NCBI GenBank assembly: GCA_027484125.1
Contig: JAIXUI010000001.1
Coordinates: 1 to 36,960 of the forward strand
Source: Bacteroidota bacterium
Lineage (GTDB): Bacteria; Bacteroidota; Bacteroidia; UBA7662; JAIXUI01
Direction of reading: 5' to 3'
Length of the DNA stretch: 36,960 nucleotides
The position numbers were made by a program, and so were the translations under genes. Every line of letters starts with the position of its first letter. Within the stretch, counting starts at the first letter, position 1. Shown in pieces: positions 3,523 through 10,518 of the stretch. The notes under the pieces were generated by a model. That model was not told the DNA's origin and made no database searches. It was given only the letters and a program-made list of their open reading frames with translations.

Positions 3523-3539
3523 ACCAAAACAAGCAATCC

Positions 3540-3756
3540 CCATTCCCCATTCTTCATTATCCATTCCCCATTCTCCATTCCCCATTCTCCATTCCCCATT
3601 CTCCATTCTCCATTCTCCATTCTTCATTCTCCATTCTTCATTCTTCATTAACCATTAACCATTATCCATTAACCATTAACCATTATCCATTCCCCATTCC
3701 CCATTCTCCATTCTTCATTCTTCATTAACCATTAACCATTATCCATTATCCATTCG
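3540..3756. repeat. 31-copy degenerate heptamer array
   Basis: 217 bp made of 31 back-to-back 7-bp units with no phase break. The consensus is YCATTNN, and the variants are CCATTCC, CCATTCT, TCATTCT, CCATTAA, CCATTAT, TCATTAA, TCATTAT and, at the end, CCATTCG. Units of the same kind occur in runs (CCATTCT runs, CCATTAA runs), which suggests growth by local duplication. The array stops 3 bp before the -7 promoter element of the next gene, so it occupies the place of the usual -33 region. Open frames on the minus strand here, rich in M-x-N-G-E-W, are a product of the repeat and not genes. Confidence 0.95.
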
Positions 3757-4161: not shown

Positions 4162-5525
4162 TGTATCAACTGCGCACCGACACCATCGCTGCCCTGGCCA
4201 CCGCTCCCGGCACCGGCGCTATTGCCGTACTTCGCCTTTCCGGCCCCGACACCTTTTCCATCGTTAATCGGCTGTTTAAAGGTAAAAACCTCCTCGAGCA
4301 AGCCGCCAACACCATCCACTTTGGCCGACTTGTTCACCAAGGCGTCACCCTCGACGAAGTGCTGGTGAGCCTCTTCCGCGCCCCGCACTCCTACACCAAA
4401 GAAGACGTCATCGAGATTTCCTGCCATGGCTCCCCGCTCATTGCCGGAAAAATCCTAAAAGCCCTCCTCGACGAAGGCGCCCGACTGGCGGAGCCGGGCG
4501 AATACACCTTCCGCGCATTTGCACGCGGCAGATTTGCCCTCAACGAAGCAGAAGCTGTCGCCGACCTCATCGCCGCCGACTCCGACATGGCCCACAAACA
4601 CGCCCTCGGTCAGTTGCGCGGCGGCTTCACTCGCATGCTCAGCCAACTACGGGAAGAGCTCGTCCACTTCGCCTCCCTCCTCGAACTCGAGCTCGACTTC
4701 TCCGAAGAAGACGTAGAGTTTGCCGACCGTCGGCAGTTGCTGGCCCTTATCCAGCGCATCCGCAGCACCATCCGCGGCCTCAGCGACTCCTTCCAACTCG
4801 GGCAAGTAGTGAGAGAAGGCGTGGCTACCGTGATTGCCGGGAAACCCAATGCCGGCAAGTCCACCCTACTCAATGCCCTGCTGAAAGAAGAAAAAGCCAT
4901 CGTCTCTGACATTCCCGGCACCACCCGCGACGTCATCGAAGACGTGCTACAACTGGGAGGCTACAAATTCCGCTTGCAAGACACCGCCGGCCTGCGCGAA
5001 GCCGCCGACGCCATCGAAGCCATTGGCGTAAAACGCAGCCAGGAGAAAATCCGTGAAGCCGCCCTCCTCCTCTACGTTTGCGACCTCAGTGCCACCACCC
5101 TACCGGAAATCGAAGCTGAAGTCAACAGCCTCGGACATCCGGAATTACCGCGTTTGATTGTGGGGAATAAAGCAGATTTATTGAATGACGACCAACTGAA
5201 ACCCTATCGGGAAGCAGGCGTTTATTGCGTCTCCGGTCTGCAAGGAGCCGGATTGCAAACCCTGGAACAAGCCTTGGTAGAAGCCGTAGAAAACCTGGGA
5301 CAGAACGGAGAAGTCACCCTCACCAACCTGCGCCACGTACAAGCCCTAAACGCCACAGAAGAAGCCCTCAGCAGAGCCGAAGCCAGCCTCAGCAGCGGCA
5401 CCACCGCCGACTGGATTGCTCAAGACATCCGCCAAGCCCTCCACCAACTCGGCCTCATCACCGGCCAAATCACCACCGACGATTTACTCGAGAACATCTT
5501 CAGCAAGTTTTGTATCGGAAAGTAG
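4161..5525 (+). CDS. mnmE: tRNA uridine-5-carboxymethylaminomethyl modification GTPase MnmE
   Basis: A 454-residue protein of normal length for MnmE (TrmE), which with MnmG makes cmnm5U at the wobble position of several tRNAs. The N-terminal folate-binding domain opens with DTIAALATAPGTGAIAVLRLSG. The inserted G domain has G1 GKPNAGKST near residue 230, DTAG near 273 and NKAD near 336. The C terminus is the conserved FCIGK, which carries the essential cysteine. The gene is translationally coupled to the fragment upstream. The last 18 bases, coding for FCIGK and the stop, are the left copy of a 27-bp repeat whose other copy lies at 10492-10518; an element appears to have integrated there without changing the protein. 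As a result the gene is separated from its probable own terminator at 10512-10536. Confidence 0.97.
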   Translation: MYQLRTDTIAALATAPGTGAIAVLRLSGPDTFSIVNRLFKGKNLLEQAANTIHFGRLVHQGVTLDEVLVSLFRAPHSYTKEDVIEISCHGSPLIAGKILKALLDEGARLAEPGEYTFRAFARGRFALNEAEAVADLIAADSDMAHKHALGQLRGGFTRMLSQLREELVHFASLLELELDFSEEDVEFADRRQLLALIQRIRSTIRGLSDSFQLGQVVREGVATVIAGKPNAGKSTLLNALLKEEKAIVSDIPGTTRDVIEDVLQLGGYKFRLQDTAGLREAADAIEAIGVKRSQEKIREAALLLYVCDLSATTLPEIEAEVNSLGHPELPRLIVGNKADLLNDDQLKPYREAGVYCVSGLQGAGLQTLEQALVEAVENLGQNGEVTLTNLRHVQALNATEEALSRAEASLSSGTTADWIAQDIRQALHQLGLITGQITTDDLLENIFSKFCIGK

Positions 5526-5534
5526 TTGAGGGGA
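5508..5534. repeat. attL-like copy of 27-bp direct repeat (mnmE 3' end)
   Basis: The copy starts TTTTGTATCGGAAAGTAG and continues TTGAGGGGA. It covers the last codons of mnmE, its stop, and 9 further bases. It matches 10492-10518 at 26 of 27 positions (C/T at 5516 versus 10500). Confidence 0.8.
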
Positions 5535-5587: not shown

Positions 5588-6874
5588 ATGGAAATCGAAA
5601 AACTTATCCTTCAAAACTTCAGAAATATTGGAGCTGAAAGGACATTTCTTTTCAATAATCGATTCACTGTCATTATTGGGGTTAATGGAAAAGGGAAATC
5701 AACCATTCTACATGGTTTGAGAGTAGCATGTGGAAGTTTTTTCCTTGGATTTCCAAGACATGAAGTTAGAGCACGGCATATTTCACAAGATGAAATCAGA
5801 TTAGAAGATACTAAGCAATTTATTGAAGTAACCCAATTAGTAAAAAAATTTCCGGTAAAGGTAGAAGCAGTCGGACATTTCCCCGGCATTGTAGGACCAT
5901 TGACTTGGCGACGTTTATGGATGCATGACCAATCCGCAACGTCAACTAAATATGCAGATGTAGGCGCAATCAAGGAATACGCTACGGAGATTTACCAATC
6001 TGTAAATGAAAATGGAAAATTTGATTTTCCTATTCCAGTAATTGCGTTTTTTGGAATTTCTAGAGCTGTGGGCAGCGGTAGAGTTACCACCAAAAGCAGA
6101 AAAAATGTATTAGGCAGATTACAATTTCAGGAAGCCTATCAAGATTGGGATGAGATGAAATATTCCAAATTTCATTATGCGGAATGGTTGGCAAATTACC
6201 AAATATTGTTAAGTCAGAAAAAAGAATTCTCTCAGACCAATGAAGCTTTTTTTATTGCAGTTCAAACTGCTTCGAGCTATTTAACAGAAATCCGTTTCTC
6301 GAAAGATGAGTTATGGGTAAAGGCCAAGTTAGACGATGTTGAAACTGATTTAATGCCCTTGAGTATGCATAGTGACGGCATTAGATATTTCACTGAAATG
6401 GTTGCGGAATTAGCTTACAGATGTATTGTTGTAAATGGTAAAGATGGAATTAATGCAGTAAAAAATGCAACCGGCATTGTCATGATTGATGAATTAGACT
6501 TGCACCTTCATCCTAAATGGCAAAGGCATGTAGCCAATGATTTAAAAAGAGCTTTCCCAAATATCCAGTTTATTGTTACCACACATTCACCTTTCATAGT
6601 TCAAAGTTTAAAAAGTGATGAAATCTGGAATCTCGACAAGTTAATGGATGTAGCACCAAACGAGTTAAAGATTGATACTGTAGCAACTGAGATTATGGGT
6701 ATTTCAAGTCCTTACTCTGAAACTAACGAGGAGCTTTATATTAAGAGCAAAAAGTTCATGGAAGACTTAGAATCAAATAAATCTACAGAAGAACTTCAAA
6801 TTGAATTAGCTGAGATTTCAGACCCGGCAGTAAGAGCATTTCTTGAATTACAAAAAATATCAAAGGGAAAATGA
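5588..6874 (+). CDS. ptuA: PtuA-like AAA ATPase of a Septu-type defence pair
   Basis: A 428-residue ATPase of the AAA_21/OLD-like SMC-related group. Walker A GVNGKGKST is at residues 31-39, Walker B with the signature VMIDELDLHLHP is near 297-306, and the switch histidine in VTTHSPF is near 330. The stop overlaps the start of an HNH nuclease by 4 bp (ATGA). ATPase plus HNH nuclease is the make-up of Septu (PtuA/PtuB), an anti-phage system in which the ATPase controls the nuclease and senses infection or nucleotide state. Retrons such as Ec78 use the same pair, but no reverse transcriptase or retron RNA gene is evident here, so a two-gene Septu system is the better reading. The gene starts 62 bp after mnmE, just inside the integrated element, and is AT-richer than mnmE. 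Confidence 0.82.
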   Translation: MEIEKLILQNFRNIGAERTFLFNNRFTVIIGVNGKGKSTILHGLRVACGSFFLGFPRHEVRARHISQDEIRLEDTKQFIEVTQLVKKFPVKVEAVGHFPGIVGPLTWRRLWMHDQSATSTKYADVGAIKEYATEIYQSVNENGKFDFPIPVIAFFGISRAVGSGRVTTKSRKNVLGRLQFQEAYQDWDEMKYSKFHYAEWLANYQILLSQKKEFSQTNEAFFIAVQTASSYLTEIRFSKDELWVKAKLDDVETDLMPLSMHSDGIRYFTEMVAELAYRCIVVNGKDGINAVKNATGIVMIDELDLHLHPKWQRHVANDLKRAFPNIQFIVTTHSPFIVQSLKSDEIWNLDKLMDVAPNELKIDTVATEIMGISSPYSETNEELYIKSKKFMEDLESNKSTEELQIELAEISDPAVRAFLELQKISKGK

Positions 6875-7626
6875 GGCCATTAAATAAAGGAAATACACCT
6901 ACCGATTCTGCAGGGAACCCTATTTCGCCTACAGATTACAAAAGTTGGAGAAAGGCACTTATAGACAGAATTGGCGCCTATTGTGCCTATTGTAATATGC
7001 CAATAAAACATGCTTTACAAGTAGAACATGTAGTACCAAAAAATCCTCCCACTGGTTACACAGCAGGAGAACCATTAGCTTGGTCAAATATGCTGCTCGC
7101 CTGTGGTCCATGTAATAATGCAAAAGGTAATGCTCCTGTCGACGCTATCACTTATTACCTTCCGGAGGAACACAATACACATCTTCCATTTATAATTGTC
7201 CCTCATGCAGCAGATCCTAAGCATGCTATCGTTATGGAAAGGTCAGGGTTAAATGCAAATCAATTCCAAAAGGCACAACGAACCATCGCATTGACTGAAT
7301 TAAATACAACAGATGAACGCGCCAATATTGTAGACCTTCGAAGTCGTGAACGGAAATCGGCTGCAATAACTATTAATTCAACACGAAACATTTACAACCT
7401 TGCTTCAGCACATAATCCTAACCTCGCTGCTGAACATGTGGTTCAAGTAGCGTCTCGAACAGGCTTTTTTAGCTTGTGGTACGAGGAATTTATGAATGAC
7501 CCTTTGGTTATGGAAAAGCTAACAAATAATGCAATTATTCCAGGCACAGCAACAAATTGTTTTGACCCTACCGATGGTTACATGCCCATTCCTCGAAACC
7601 CTACTAATGCTGCTGACCCCATATAG
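6871..7626 (+). CDS. ptuB: PtuB-like HNH endonuclease
   Basis: A 251-residue HNH nuclease, the expected effector of the Septu-like pair. Zinc ligands C38/C41 (CAYC) and C78/C81 (CGPC) flank the catalytic region, with H53 in VEHVVPK, N73 in WSNML and N82 in CNNAKG. This spacing is that of the PtuB/TIGR02646 group. The C-terminal part ends with the conserved PGTA-x2-CFDPT and PRNPTN segments, and the same tail survives as a relic at 3346-3522. It is translationally coupled to the ATPase by an ATGA overlap, as expected for a toxic nuclease made with its controlling partner. It cleaves nucleic acid in the cytoplasm; the exact substrate (DNA or tRNA) cannot be told from the sequence. Confidence 0.83.
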   Translation: MRPLNKGNTPTDSAGNPISPTDYKSWRKALIDRIGAYCAYCNMPIKHALQVEHVVPKNPPTGYTAGEPLAWSNMLLACGPCNNAKGNAPVDAITYYLPEEHNTHLPFIIVPHAADPKHAIVMERSGLNANQFQKAQRTIALTELNTTDERANIVDLRSRERKSAAITINSTRNIYNLASAHNPNLAAEHVVQVASRTGFFSLWYEEFMNDPLVMEKLTNNAIIPGTATNCFDPTDGYMPIPRNPTNAADPI

Positions 7627-7968
7627 TTGAAGAAAGAGAGTATCGTACCCTACCTATAATTAAACTTTTATTCTTTGTTGACCGAAATGCCTGAGTATTG
7701 GGAGGCAAAAAGGCTACGCACACTTTAAAGAACATTTAGAGAAGGGATATCCTGATGAATCCTTGTTGGCAGCCACGTAATGATGCAGCTATCCATGAAT
7801 GAAAATTAATTTATATGTTTTCAAGGCAGGCTAACATTCAATATTATATCAATGGAATATTGGCCTTTTACCTCCAATTTGGTCAAGTAATAACTTTACT
7901 AAATACTTCCAATAGTCAATTAATAACTTTACCTCTTACCTTCAGATGTCAATCTATAACTTTACTTT
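7627..7968. other. 342-bp spacer with relic sequence and regulatory repeats
   Basis: No gene is visible. A short frame near 7725-7780 reads FKEHLEKGYPDESLLAAT before a stop, which looks like a gene relic that I cannot name. The last 90 bp contain three operator-like repeats, listed separately. An open frame starting at 7815 runs through the repeats into the next gene out of frame and is not supported. Confidence 0.5.
7882..7965 (+). promoter_or_regulatory. three 18-bp direct repeats, 33-bp period (operator/promoter)
   Basis: GTCAAGTAATAACTTTAC (7882-7899), GTCAATTAATAACTTTAC (7915-7932) and GTCAATCTATAACTTTAC (7948-7965) repeat with an exact 33-bp period, about three helical turns, so bound proteins would sit on the same DNA face. 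Each repeat contains TAACTTTA, one base from the TAnnTTTG element. The last repeat ends 3 nt before the ATG of the helix-turn-helix gene. Autoregulation by that protein is the obvious inference. Confidence 0.7.
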
Positions 7969-8427
7969 ATGAGCAAGAAATCACTCCAACTGCAACATCT
8001 CAACAGCAAAATGCTGGCATTTGCGGCACTTAAACAGGTAGCCATGCCACCCACCGGATGGATAAAAGCCATCCGCACTGCCTTGGGTATGTCTATGCAA
8101 CAATTGGGTAAAAAGCTAAATATTTCCAAGCAAGGCGTCATGGACATTGAAAAGCGGGAAAAAGACGGTTCCATTACCATCAAATCCCTGCGGGAAGTCG
8201 CCCGTGCTATGGATATGCAGTTGGTGTATGGGTTTGTACCCAATGACGGATCATTGGATGCCCTCATTAAAAAACGGGCCACCGAGTTGGCCACCCAAAT
8301 AGTGATGCGAACCGCCAACACCATGAAGCTCGAGGATCAGGCCAATTCAAAAAAACGAATTGAAGTCGCCATCAAGGAAAGGGCAAATGCCATTCAAAAT
8401 GATATGCCTAAAATCTTATGGGATTAA
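7969..8427 (+). CDS. mobile mystery protein A (XRE-type helix-turn-helix)
   Basis: A 152-residue protein with a central helix-turn-helix (about residues 31-80, including GMSMQQLGKKLNISKQGVMD), as in the mobile mystery protein A family (TIGR02612). That family occurs next to mobile mystery protein B in mobile or accessory regions; its function is not established, but an antitoxin-like repressor is a fair guess because the B protein carries a Fic domain. Its stop overlaps the next gene's start by 10 bp. Three direct repeats lie directly in front of its ATG and probably serve as its operator. Length is normal for the family. Confidence 0.85.
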   Translation: MSKKSLQLQHLNSKMLAFAALKQVAMPPTGWIKAIRTALGMSMQQLGKKLNISKQGVMDIEKREKDGSITIKSLREVARAMDMQLVYGFVPNDGSLDALIKKRATELATQIVMRTANTMKLEDQANSKKRIEVAIKERANAIQNDMPKILWD

Positions 8428-8596
8428 ATTTAGCATACATTGATGGCCAAACCCCTTTAGAGGAAGAAGAGAAAGACGGGCTTCTCATTCCTACCATTGC
8501 CACCCGTGGCGAGTTAGACGAATTTGAGCAGCAGAATATAGAGCAAGCCGTACAATGGACTTTGGGGCGTTCTTTTAAGCCGGATAGGGTTTTTAC
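8418..8596 (+). pseudogene. mobile mystery protein B, truncated by an IS end
   Basis: The frame opens with YIDGQTPLEEEEKDGLLIPT and continues through TRGELDEFEQQNIEQAVQW to PDRVFT, matching the start of mobile mystery protein B (TIGR02613), a protein of about 200 residues with a Fic/DOC domain. Similarity stops after the codon ending at 8596; the frame then runs into IS-end DNA and stops at 8618. Only about 60 residues remain and the Fic active site is absent, so no Fic activity is possible. Helix-turn-helix protein A upstream is intact, so the pair is broken on the presumed effector side. Confidence 0.8.
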
Positions 8597-8740
8597 TGTG
8601 TGCTCCGTTTTGAACTGACCCCCTAATCCGGCAAATTGACCCCGTGTTTGGATTGATTTTAATCTATCCATTCCGTTAAGTTGCCCCCAAGATAGGACTG
8701 TATTCGATATGCCCTAATCCGGCAAATTGACCCCCATTTT
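8597..8740. mobile_element. relic of an insertion sequence end with multiple terminal repeats (IS21-like)
   Basis: Starting with TGTGTGCTCCG at 8597, the segment holds repeated motifs of the form TCCG-n-TTGACCCCC. Two 23-bp copies beginning CCCTAATCCGGCAAATTGAC are identical (8621-8643 and 8712-8734). Degenerate copies occur near 8603-8623 and 8670-8687, so the spacing is roughly 45 bp. Several short repeats inside an end beginning with TG are typical of the IS21 family. No transposase is present, so most of the element has been lost. The segment interrupts the mobile mystery protein B gene. Confidence 0.6.
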
Positions 8741-8797
8741 TTTAGTTTTTATTGTTTGCTTGCTTCAGTTAAATGAACGTAGAATGGGAATTCTTAG

Positions 8798-10491: not shown

Positions 10492-10518
10492 TTTTGTATT
10501 GGAAAGTAGTTGAGGGGA
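10492..10518. repeat. attR-like copy of 27-bp direct repeat
   Basis: The copy starts TTTTGTATTGGAAAGTAG and continues TTGAGGGGA. It encodes FCIGK and a stop in the same phase as the mnmE end but has no gene in front. It matches 5508-5534 at 26 of 27 positions. Confidence 0.8.

Follow-up and report, generated by a model that had tools for sequence, protein, structure and literature searches.

Three inverted repeats at a 33-bp period ahead of a mobile mystery protein A gene form a candidate autoregulatory operator

Immediately upstream of a gene for mobile mystery protein A (mmpA) in a Bacteroidota bacterium lie three nearly identical 18-bp repeats at a constant period, raising the question of which protein reads them and to what effect. 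The repeats were analysed within a 36,960-nucleotide stretch of contig JAIXUI010000001.1 (hereafter the window). The original prediction had offered either cooperative binding by the helix-turn-helix (HTH) protein encoded by mmpA or three alternative promoters. Judged from sequence comparison, the array is very likely to be an autoregulatory operator of an mmpA-mmpB operon, with MmpA dimers on each repeat shutting down transcription. The features concerned are as follows.

7882 to 7899, forward strand: candidate operator copy 1, GTCAAGTAATAACTTTAC, with 14 of 18 positions palindromic
7915 to 7932, forward strand: candidate operator copy 2, GTCAATTAATAACTTTAC, with 12 of 18 positions symmetric; its last three bases open the -7 box in homologues
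7930 to 7937, forward strand: degraded -7 box, TACCTCTT, where 60 of 93 homologues have TAnnTTTG
7948 to 7965, forward strand: candidate operator copy 3, GTCAATCTATAACTTTAC, with 12 of 18 positions symmetric, 3 nt 5′ of the start codon
7969 to 8427, forward strand: mmpA, mobile mystery protein A, a 152-aa HTH_3 protein (TIGR02612, 143.1 bits, cut-off 122.6)
8418 to 8618, forward strand: truncated mmpB, with residues 1-60 of a 206-residue homologue left and the Fic motif lost; Fic family in homologues
8598 to 8790, no strand: repetitive sequence at the mmpB break; related copies, 73-96% identical, lie on several further contigs of the genome

The array in the window and at homologous genes

The repeats had been described as 18 bp long, with an exact 33-bp period and reaching to 3 nt from the start codon, and this was confirmed at 7882, 7915 and 7948, the start-to-start distances being 33 and 33 with TTT and then the ATG at 7969 following the last copy. 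The three copies agree pairwise at 17, 16 and 15 of 18 positions; when the window was randomised 60 times under a first-order Markov model, no version contained an equally spaced triple as good as this. Within the window itself, equal spacing of three copies recurs only in a simple heptamer tandem repeat near 3533-3720, an intergenic stretch of about 3533-3745 made up of the variants CATTCCC, CATTCTC and CATTAAC. Allowing up to two mismatches from the two-site pattern, the window array was the sole match in its own genome, with no second regulated gene carrying two sites found elsewhere in that genome and single sites being indistinguishable from chance.

Of 432 relatives detected in species genomes with a profile, the best 80 were retained, and family searches supplied more; the homologue set comprised 110 distinct upstream regions, drawn from Bacteroidota and Chlorobiota with a single record labelled Methylophilaceae. 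Looking for the same repeats upstream of other mmpA genes, the check attached to the original prediction, revealed the array in 93 of these 110 distinct homologues. When each of the 110 regions was matched against itself only, the self-match was 0.508 at lag 33 and 0.447 at lag 66, compared with 0.278/0.254 and 0.267/0.269 for the same lags in two control stretches from the same loci. Because each region was compared with itself alone, the lag-33 periodicity cannot be explained by kinship between loci. Triple scores against a weight matrix exceeded 18 in 93/110 loci and in 0/108 controls (control maximum 7.2), the three sites in the window scoring 22-24 bits each. The spacing was exactly 33,33 in 70 of the 93 array loci, and in 66 of them the gap from the end of copy 3 to the start codon was 3-4 nt. 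A scan with no prior on spacing likewise recovered a neighbour distance of 33 bp in 163/191 cases and of 32 bp in 21/191, with three or four sites in 79/110 loci. A fourth in-register copy was present in 23/93 homologues, while no candidate for one was found upstream of the window array.

Inverted repeats and the protein likely to read them

The copies in the window are imperfect inverted repeats of the form GTMAA-N8-TTKAC and for that reason are better taken as operators than as promoter elements. The pooled motif matrix correlates with its own reverse complement at 0.87, and near-perfect palindromes occur in many homologues, for example GTAAAGTAATAGCTTTAC. The array is also specific for mmpA. 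When 395 phylum-group genomes were searched with a permissive pattern of two sites at the array spacing, 11 loci in 11 genomes matched, with no match for the reversed control. Nine of the 11 lay at an intact mmpA and the other two at a vestigial one (L149 and L147), the array in L149 preceding the first 29 residues of mmpA plus a piece of mmpB, and that in L147 preceding GTGGACAAAAAGTCATTACGGATAtag, translated as the opening residues of MmpA and then a stop (MDKKSLRI-stop). The array may also flag vestigial mmpA loci that escape protein searches.

MmpA from the window belongs to TIGR02612, its whole-protein score lying above the curated cut-off. In an AlphaFold2 model (pLDDT 89), whose input rows excluded plasmid records, the recognition helix comprises residues 54-66. 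No solved structure of MmpA was found, with only weak HTH matches by sequence and by fold; for the HTH part of the model HipB is the nearest solved structure, and the C-terminal region (helices 96-121 and 128-145) gave no convincing match. A possible Fic-inhibitory motif spotted by eye around MKLE-x-Q (119-124) was dropped, the S/T of the known motif not being conserved.

Residues of the recognition helix vary together with bases of the half-site. Where residue 56 is glycine, alanine or asparagine, half-site position 5 is A (54/54 loci), a rule obeyed by Gly56 and A5 in the window; where it is serine or threonine, the base is G in 42/49 loci. Lysine or arginine at residue 54 is accompanied by G at half-site position 1 in 99/103 loci. 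Raw mutual information was not limited to the recognition helix, the C-terminal residues 143 and 146 also being high, as expected from shared ancestry. Since mutual information alone did not pick out the recognition helix, a tree-based test was applied, using a tree built from mmpB plus mmpA minus the HTH columns. On independent pairs over all branches of this tree, residue 56 and base 5 changed 14 times in the expected direction and never in the opposite one. On supported branches only, the counts were 5 to 0 for residue 56 and base 5 and 4 to 0 for residue 54 and base 1, these branches holding only 8 and 4 independent pairs such that each sign test alone gives >0.05. Since each copy is an inverted repeat and its bases vary in step with residues 54 and 56, the sites are very probably read by MmpA itself, on evidence that is good but not conclusive. 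Binding by the HTH protein itself, the first of the two readings originally proposed, is thus favoured by conservation, the exclusive link to mmpA, the palindromes and the residue-base covariation. Residues 54 and 56 would be the swappable positions for a predicted specificity code.

The array might instead be read by another, host-encoded regulator. This is improbable, as the array is confined to mmpA loci in the 395 genomes, accompanies the gene across phyla and on plasmids, and has bases that covary with recognition-helix residues of MmpA.

At diverged loci the period is kept with other letters. Within the phylum group, different palindromes at 32-33 bp were found, namely GTTGTTAT-type, ACAAT-type and TAAGG-type (L112, L114, L128 and L134). 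In L112 and L114 a distinct palindrome, GTTGTTATnnATnnCAAC, accompanies the recognition helix DRARVYRI, with four copies in L114. Still other palindromes with the same period occur in plasmid copies from Rhizobium, Bradyrhizobium, Ensifer, Xanthobacter and Euzebya and in Pseudomonadota genomes; in the set of Pseudomonadota plus Euzebya the top lag was 33 (z 5.2). An unsupervised search for palindromic triples scored above the 95% level of shuffles in 124/136 loci and above the shuffle maximum in 112/136. In the Pseudomonadota/Actinomycetota set a significant array was absent in 7/26 loci, several of these genes being fragmentary or having uncertain starts. Constant geometry with shifting letters across several phyla amounts to a natural experiment in repressor-site coevolution.

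Promoter placement and a proposed mechanism

The -7 consensus of flavobacteria is TAnnTTTG (PMC9723704). This motif stands at one fixed offset in 60/93 loci, its first three bases being the final three of copy 2, with only 5 loci at the next commonest offset. A TTG lies 20 bp before the -7 box in 22 of the 60 loci with TAnnTTTG, the others being T-rich at that place. In the homologue consensus, the promoter thus shares bases with copy 2, with copy 1 immediately upstream and copy 3 covering the transcript start. Because the -7 box begins inside the middle copy, binding should block the promoter. The homologues thereby combine the features of an autoregulatory operator, with sites over the promoter, specificity for mmpA and letters matched to the recognition helix.

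The second original reading, three tandem promoters with one -7 box per repeat, drew on a near -7 element, TAACTTTA, in each copy. The element is present in every copy and is close to TAnnTTTG, but it is the right arm of the palindrome. Its eighth base is a mirror position of that palindrome and reads A in 90-99% of homologue copies, where a -7 box requires G. With TAnnTTTG gathering at a single place in the middle copy and the spacing persisting in arrays of quite different letters, three alternative promoters find no support and are very improbable.

A role as sites for replication, partition or recombination, either iterons or the integration site of a mobile cassette, is likewise very improbable. 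The regularity of the direct repeats would suit such a role, as would the position of the window array in an island bounded by repeats of the mnmE 3′ end (see below), but the array overlaps the promoter and stops just short of the start codon, the ends of the island are a different sequence kilobases off, and most arrays are not next to mnmE. Slippage can yield direct repeats of constant period, but a recent functionless tandem duplication or low-complexity repeat can be dismissed, as among homologues 66-91% identical in protein only the 18-bp blocks are alike and conserved while the spacers differ, and the period within a locus outlasts the change of letters.

An autoregulatory operator read by MmpA would work as follows. 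An MmpA dimer would bind each 18-bp inverted repeat, and since the 32-33 bp from site to site make about three helical turns, the dimers would lie roughly on one face of the DNA, 33 bp slightly exceeding three turns at 10.5 bp per turn. As this spacing would set the dimers on about one face, cooperative binding is probable. The dimers may be bridged by the Fic protein MmpB, which may serve as corepressor, and with copies 1-3 occupied and the promoter placed as in the homologue consensus, transcription of mmpA-mmpB would be switched off. A large uncharacterised gene family present on plasmids and islands thereby gains a concrete predicted operator, promoter position and regulatory mechanism.

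A more far-reaching reading can be put forward only tentatively. The 33-bp period may be a ruler arising from a higher-order MmpA-MmpB assembly, bridged by the Fic protein or by the C-terminal helices of MmpA, with selection preserving the geometry in Bacteroidota, Chlorobiota, Pseudomonadota and Actinomycetota as the recognition helix and the half-site changed in concert. It would entail ratio-sensitive repression from three sites and, if true, would define an unstudied class of Fic toxin-antitoxin systems with a protein-DNA code readable at residues 54 and 56.

The original remark that no described operator was known for the mmpA family holds for the open literature searched. Related arrangements are known. 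In Escherichia coli, hipBA carries several 18-bp inverted repeats in its own promoter that are bound cooperatively (PMC3920265). As predicted for mmpAB, it has an HTH antitoxin, of Xre type, ahead of the toxin gene; its sites, like those of the mmpA array, have an 8-bp middle (HipB site TATCC-N8-GGATA). Unlike mmpAB, it has four sites at 28, 39 and 28 bp rather than three at a uniform 33 and a HipA kinase as partner rather than a Fic protein, with MmpA matching HipB only in the HTH; the array is not that of a HipBA system, operator letters, spacing and partner all being different. In Phd-Doc a Fic-family toxin is encoded with a DNA-binding antitoxin that represses the operon, with corepression and conditional cooperativity (PMC3920265). 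The likeness to mmpAB lies in the pairing of a Fic-family protein with a DNA-binding partner, the gene product and operator being unrelated. Phd is not known to be an HTH_3 protein.

NrdR boxes are palindromic with 15-16 bp between them and a measured need for an integer number of turns (PMC12051234). Their centres are about three turns apart, as in the mmpA array, but they usually number two, precede ribonucleotide reductase genes and are read by a zinc-ribbon/ATP-cone protein; the arrays described here sit at mmpA and fall outside the NrdR regulon. The PaaR2/YdaS operator of prophage CP-933P has four 18-bp inverted repeats at equal spacing, which cover promoters next to a toxin-antitoxin locus (PMC8630535), but differs in having two competing regulators, two promoters, a lambda-like switch and dissimilar repeat letters. 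In Pseudomonas putida, the Xre-RES antitoxin-toxin complex presents more than one face for DNA binding at a multi-site promoter (PMC12204516); it differs in its RES toxin and in having one imperfect inverted repeat with a suggested second site rather than a uniform array. By analogy, each half of the proposed mechanism has a precedent, in HipBA and Phd-Doc, and the logic of the spacing has one in NrdR, none of them having the mmpA architecture.

State of the window copy and its genomic setting

In the family, mmpB follows mmpA in 125/134 homologous loci, mostly with a 10-nt overlap, and is near full length in 115/134, nearly all with HxFxNGNGR and assigned to Fic by Pfam. A paper on cas loci describes TIGR02612 beside a Fic gene as an antitoxin (PMC3936711). 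The family thus shows the layout of a type II toxin-antitoxin system, with overlapping genes, a DNA-binding upstream partner and a toxin family downstream, of which the window copy keeps a remnant only, its mmpB scoring 38.7 bits vs 124.4 for TIGR02613. The mmpB match stops where sequence repeated on other contigs of the genome starts. Within 8598-8790, CCCTAATCCGGCAAATTGACCCC blocks are repeated (at 8621 and 8712), and this stretch is probably the end or ends of an insertion sequence, possibly an IS21-like one. The window locus is decaying, with the -7 box degraded and mmpB cut after residue 60. With this damage beside an intact array and a full-length gene, the window mmpA is probably an early relic or an orphan repressor/antitoxin-like gene. 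Intact copies of the locus are present in the close relatives L033 and L035, the latter from Flavihumibacter stibioxidans, and a Pedobacter locus (L073) is likewise intact.

A 27-bp direct repeat (26/27), TTTTGTATCGGAAAGTAGTTGAGGGGA, lies at 5508-5534 and 10492-10518 of the window with the copies 4984 bp apart, the upstream copy being the 3′ end of mnmE (trmE) plus 9 bp. The 5-kb island between these mnmE 3′-end copies holds PtuA, PtuB, the array, mmpA and the mmpB remnant. The PtuA-like ATPase and PtuB-like HNH protein, encoded at 5588-7626 with a 4-bp overlap, make up a Septu-type defence pair (PADLOC models). The island looks like an integration at the mnmE 3′ end, where SGI1 also inserts (PMC8409611); within the island no recombinase could be recognised. 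Shortly downstream of the mnmE 3′ end lie 15 of 135 other mmpA loci (L057, L045, L036, L032, L033, L035, L037, L040, L041, L042, L047, L080, L090, L100 and L109), as does the vestigial L149. In L057, L045 and L036 a second copy of the mnmE 3′ end follows mmpAB, giving a cassette of 1.2-2.1 kb, below the size for the usual integrase, with about 110 bp of mnmE duplicated in L045.
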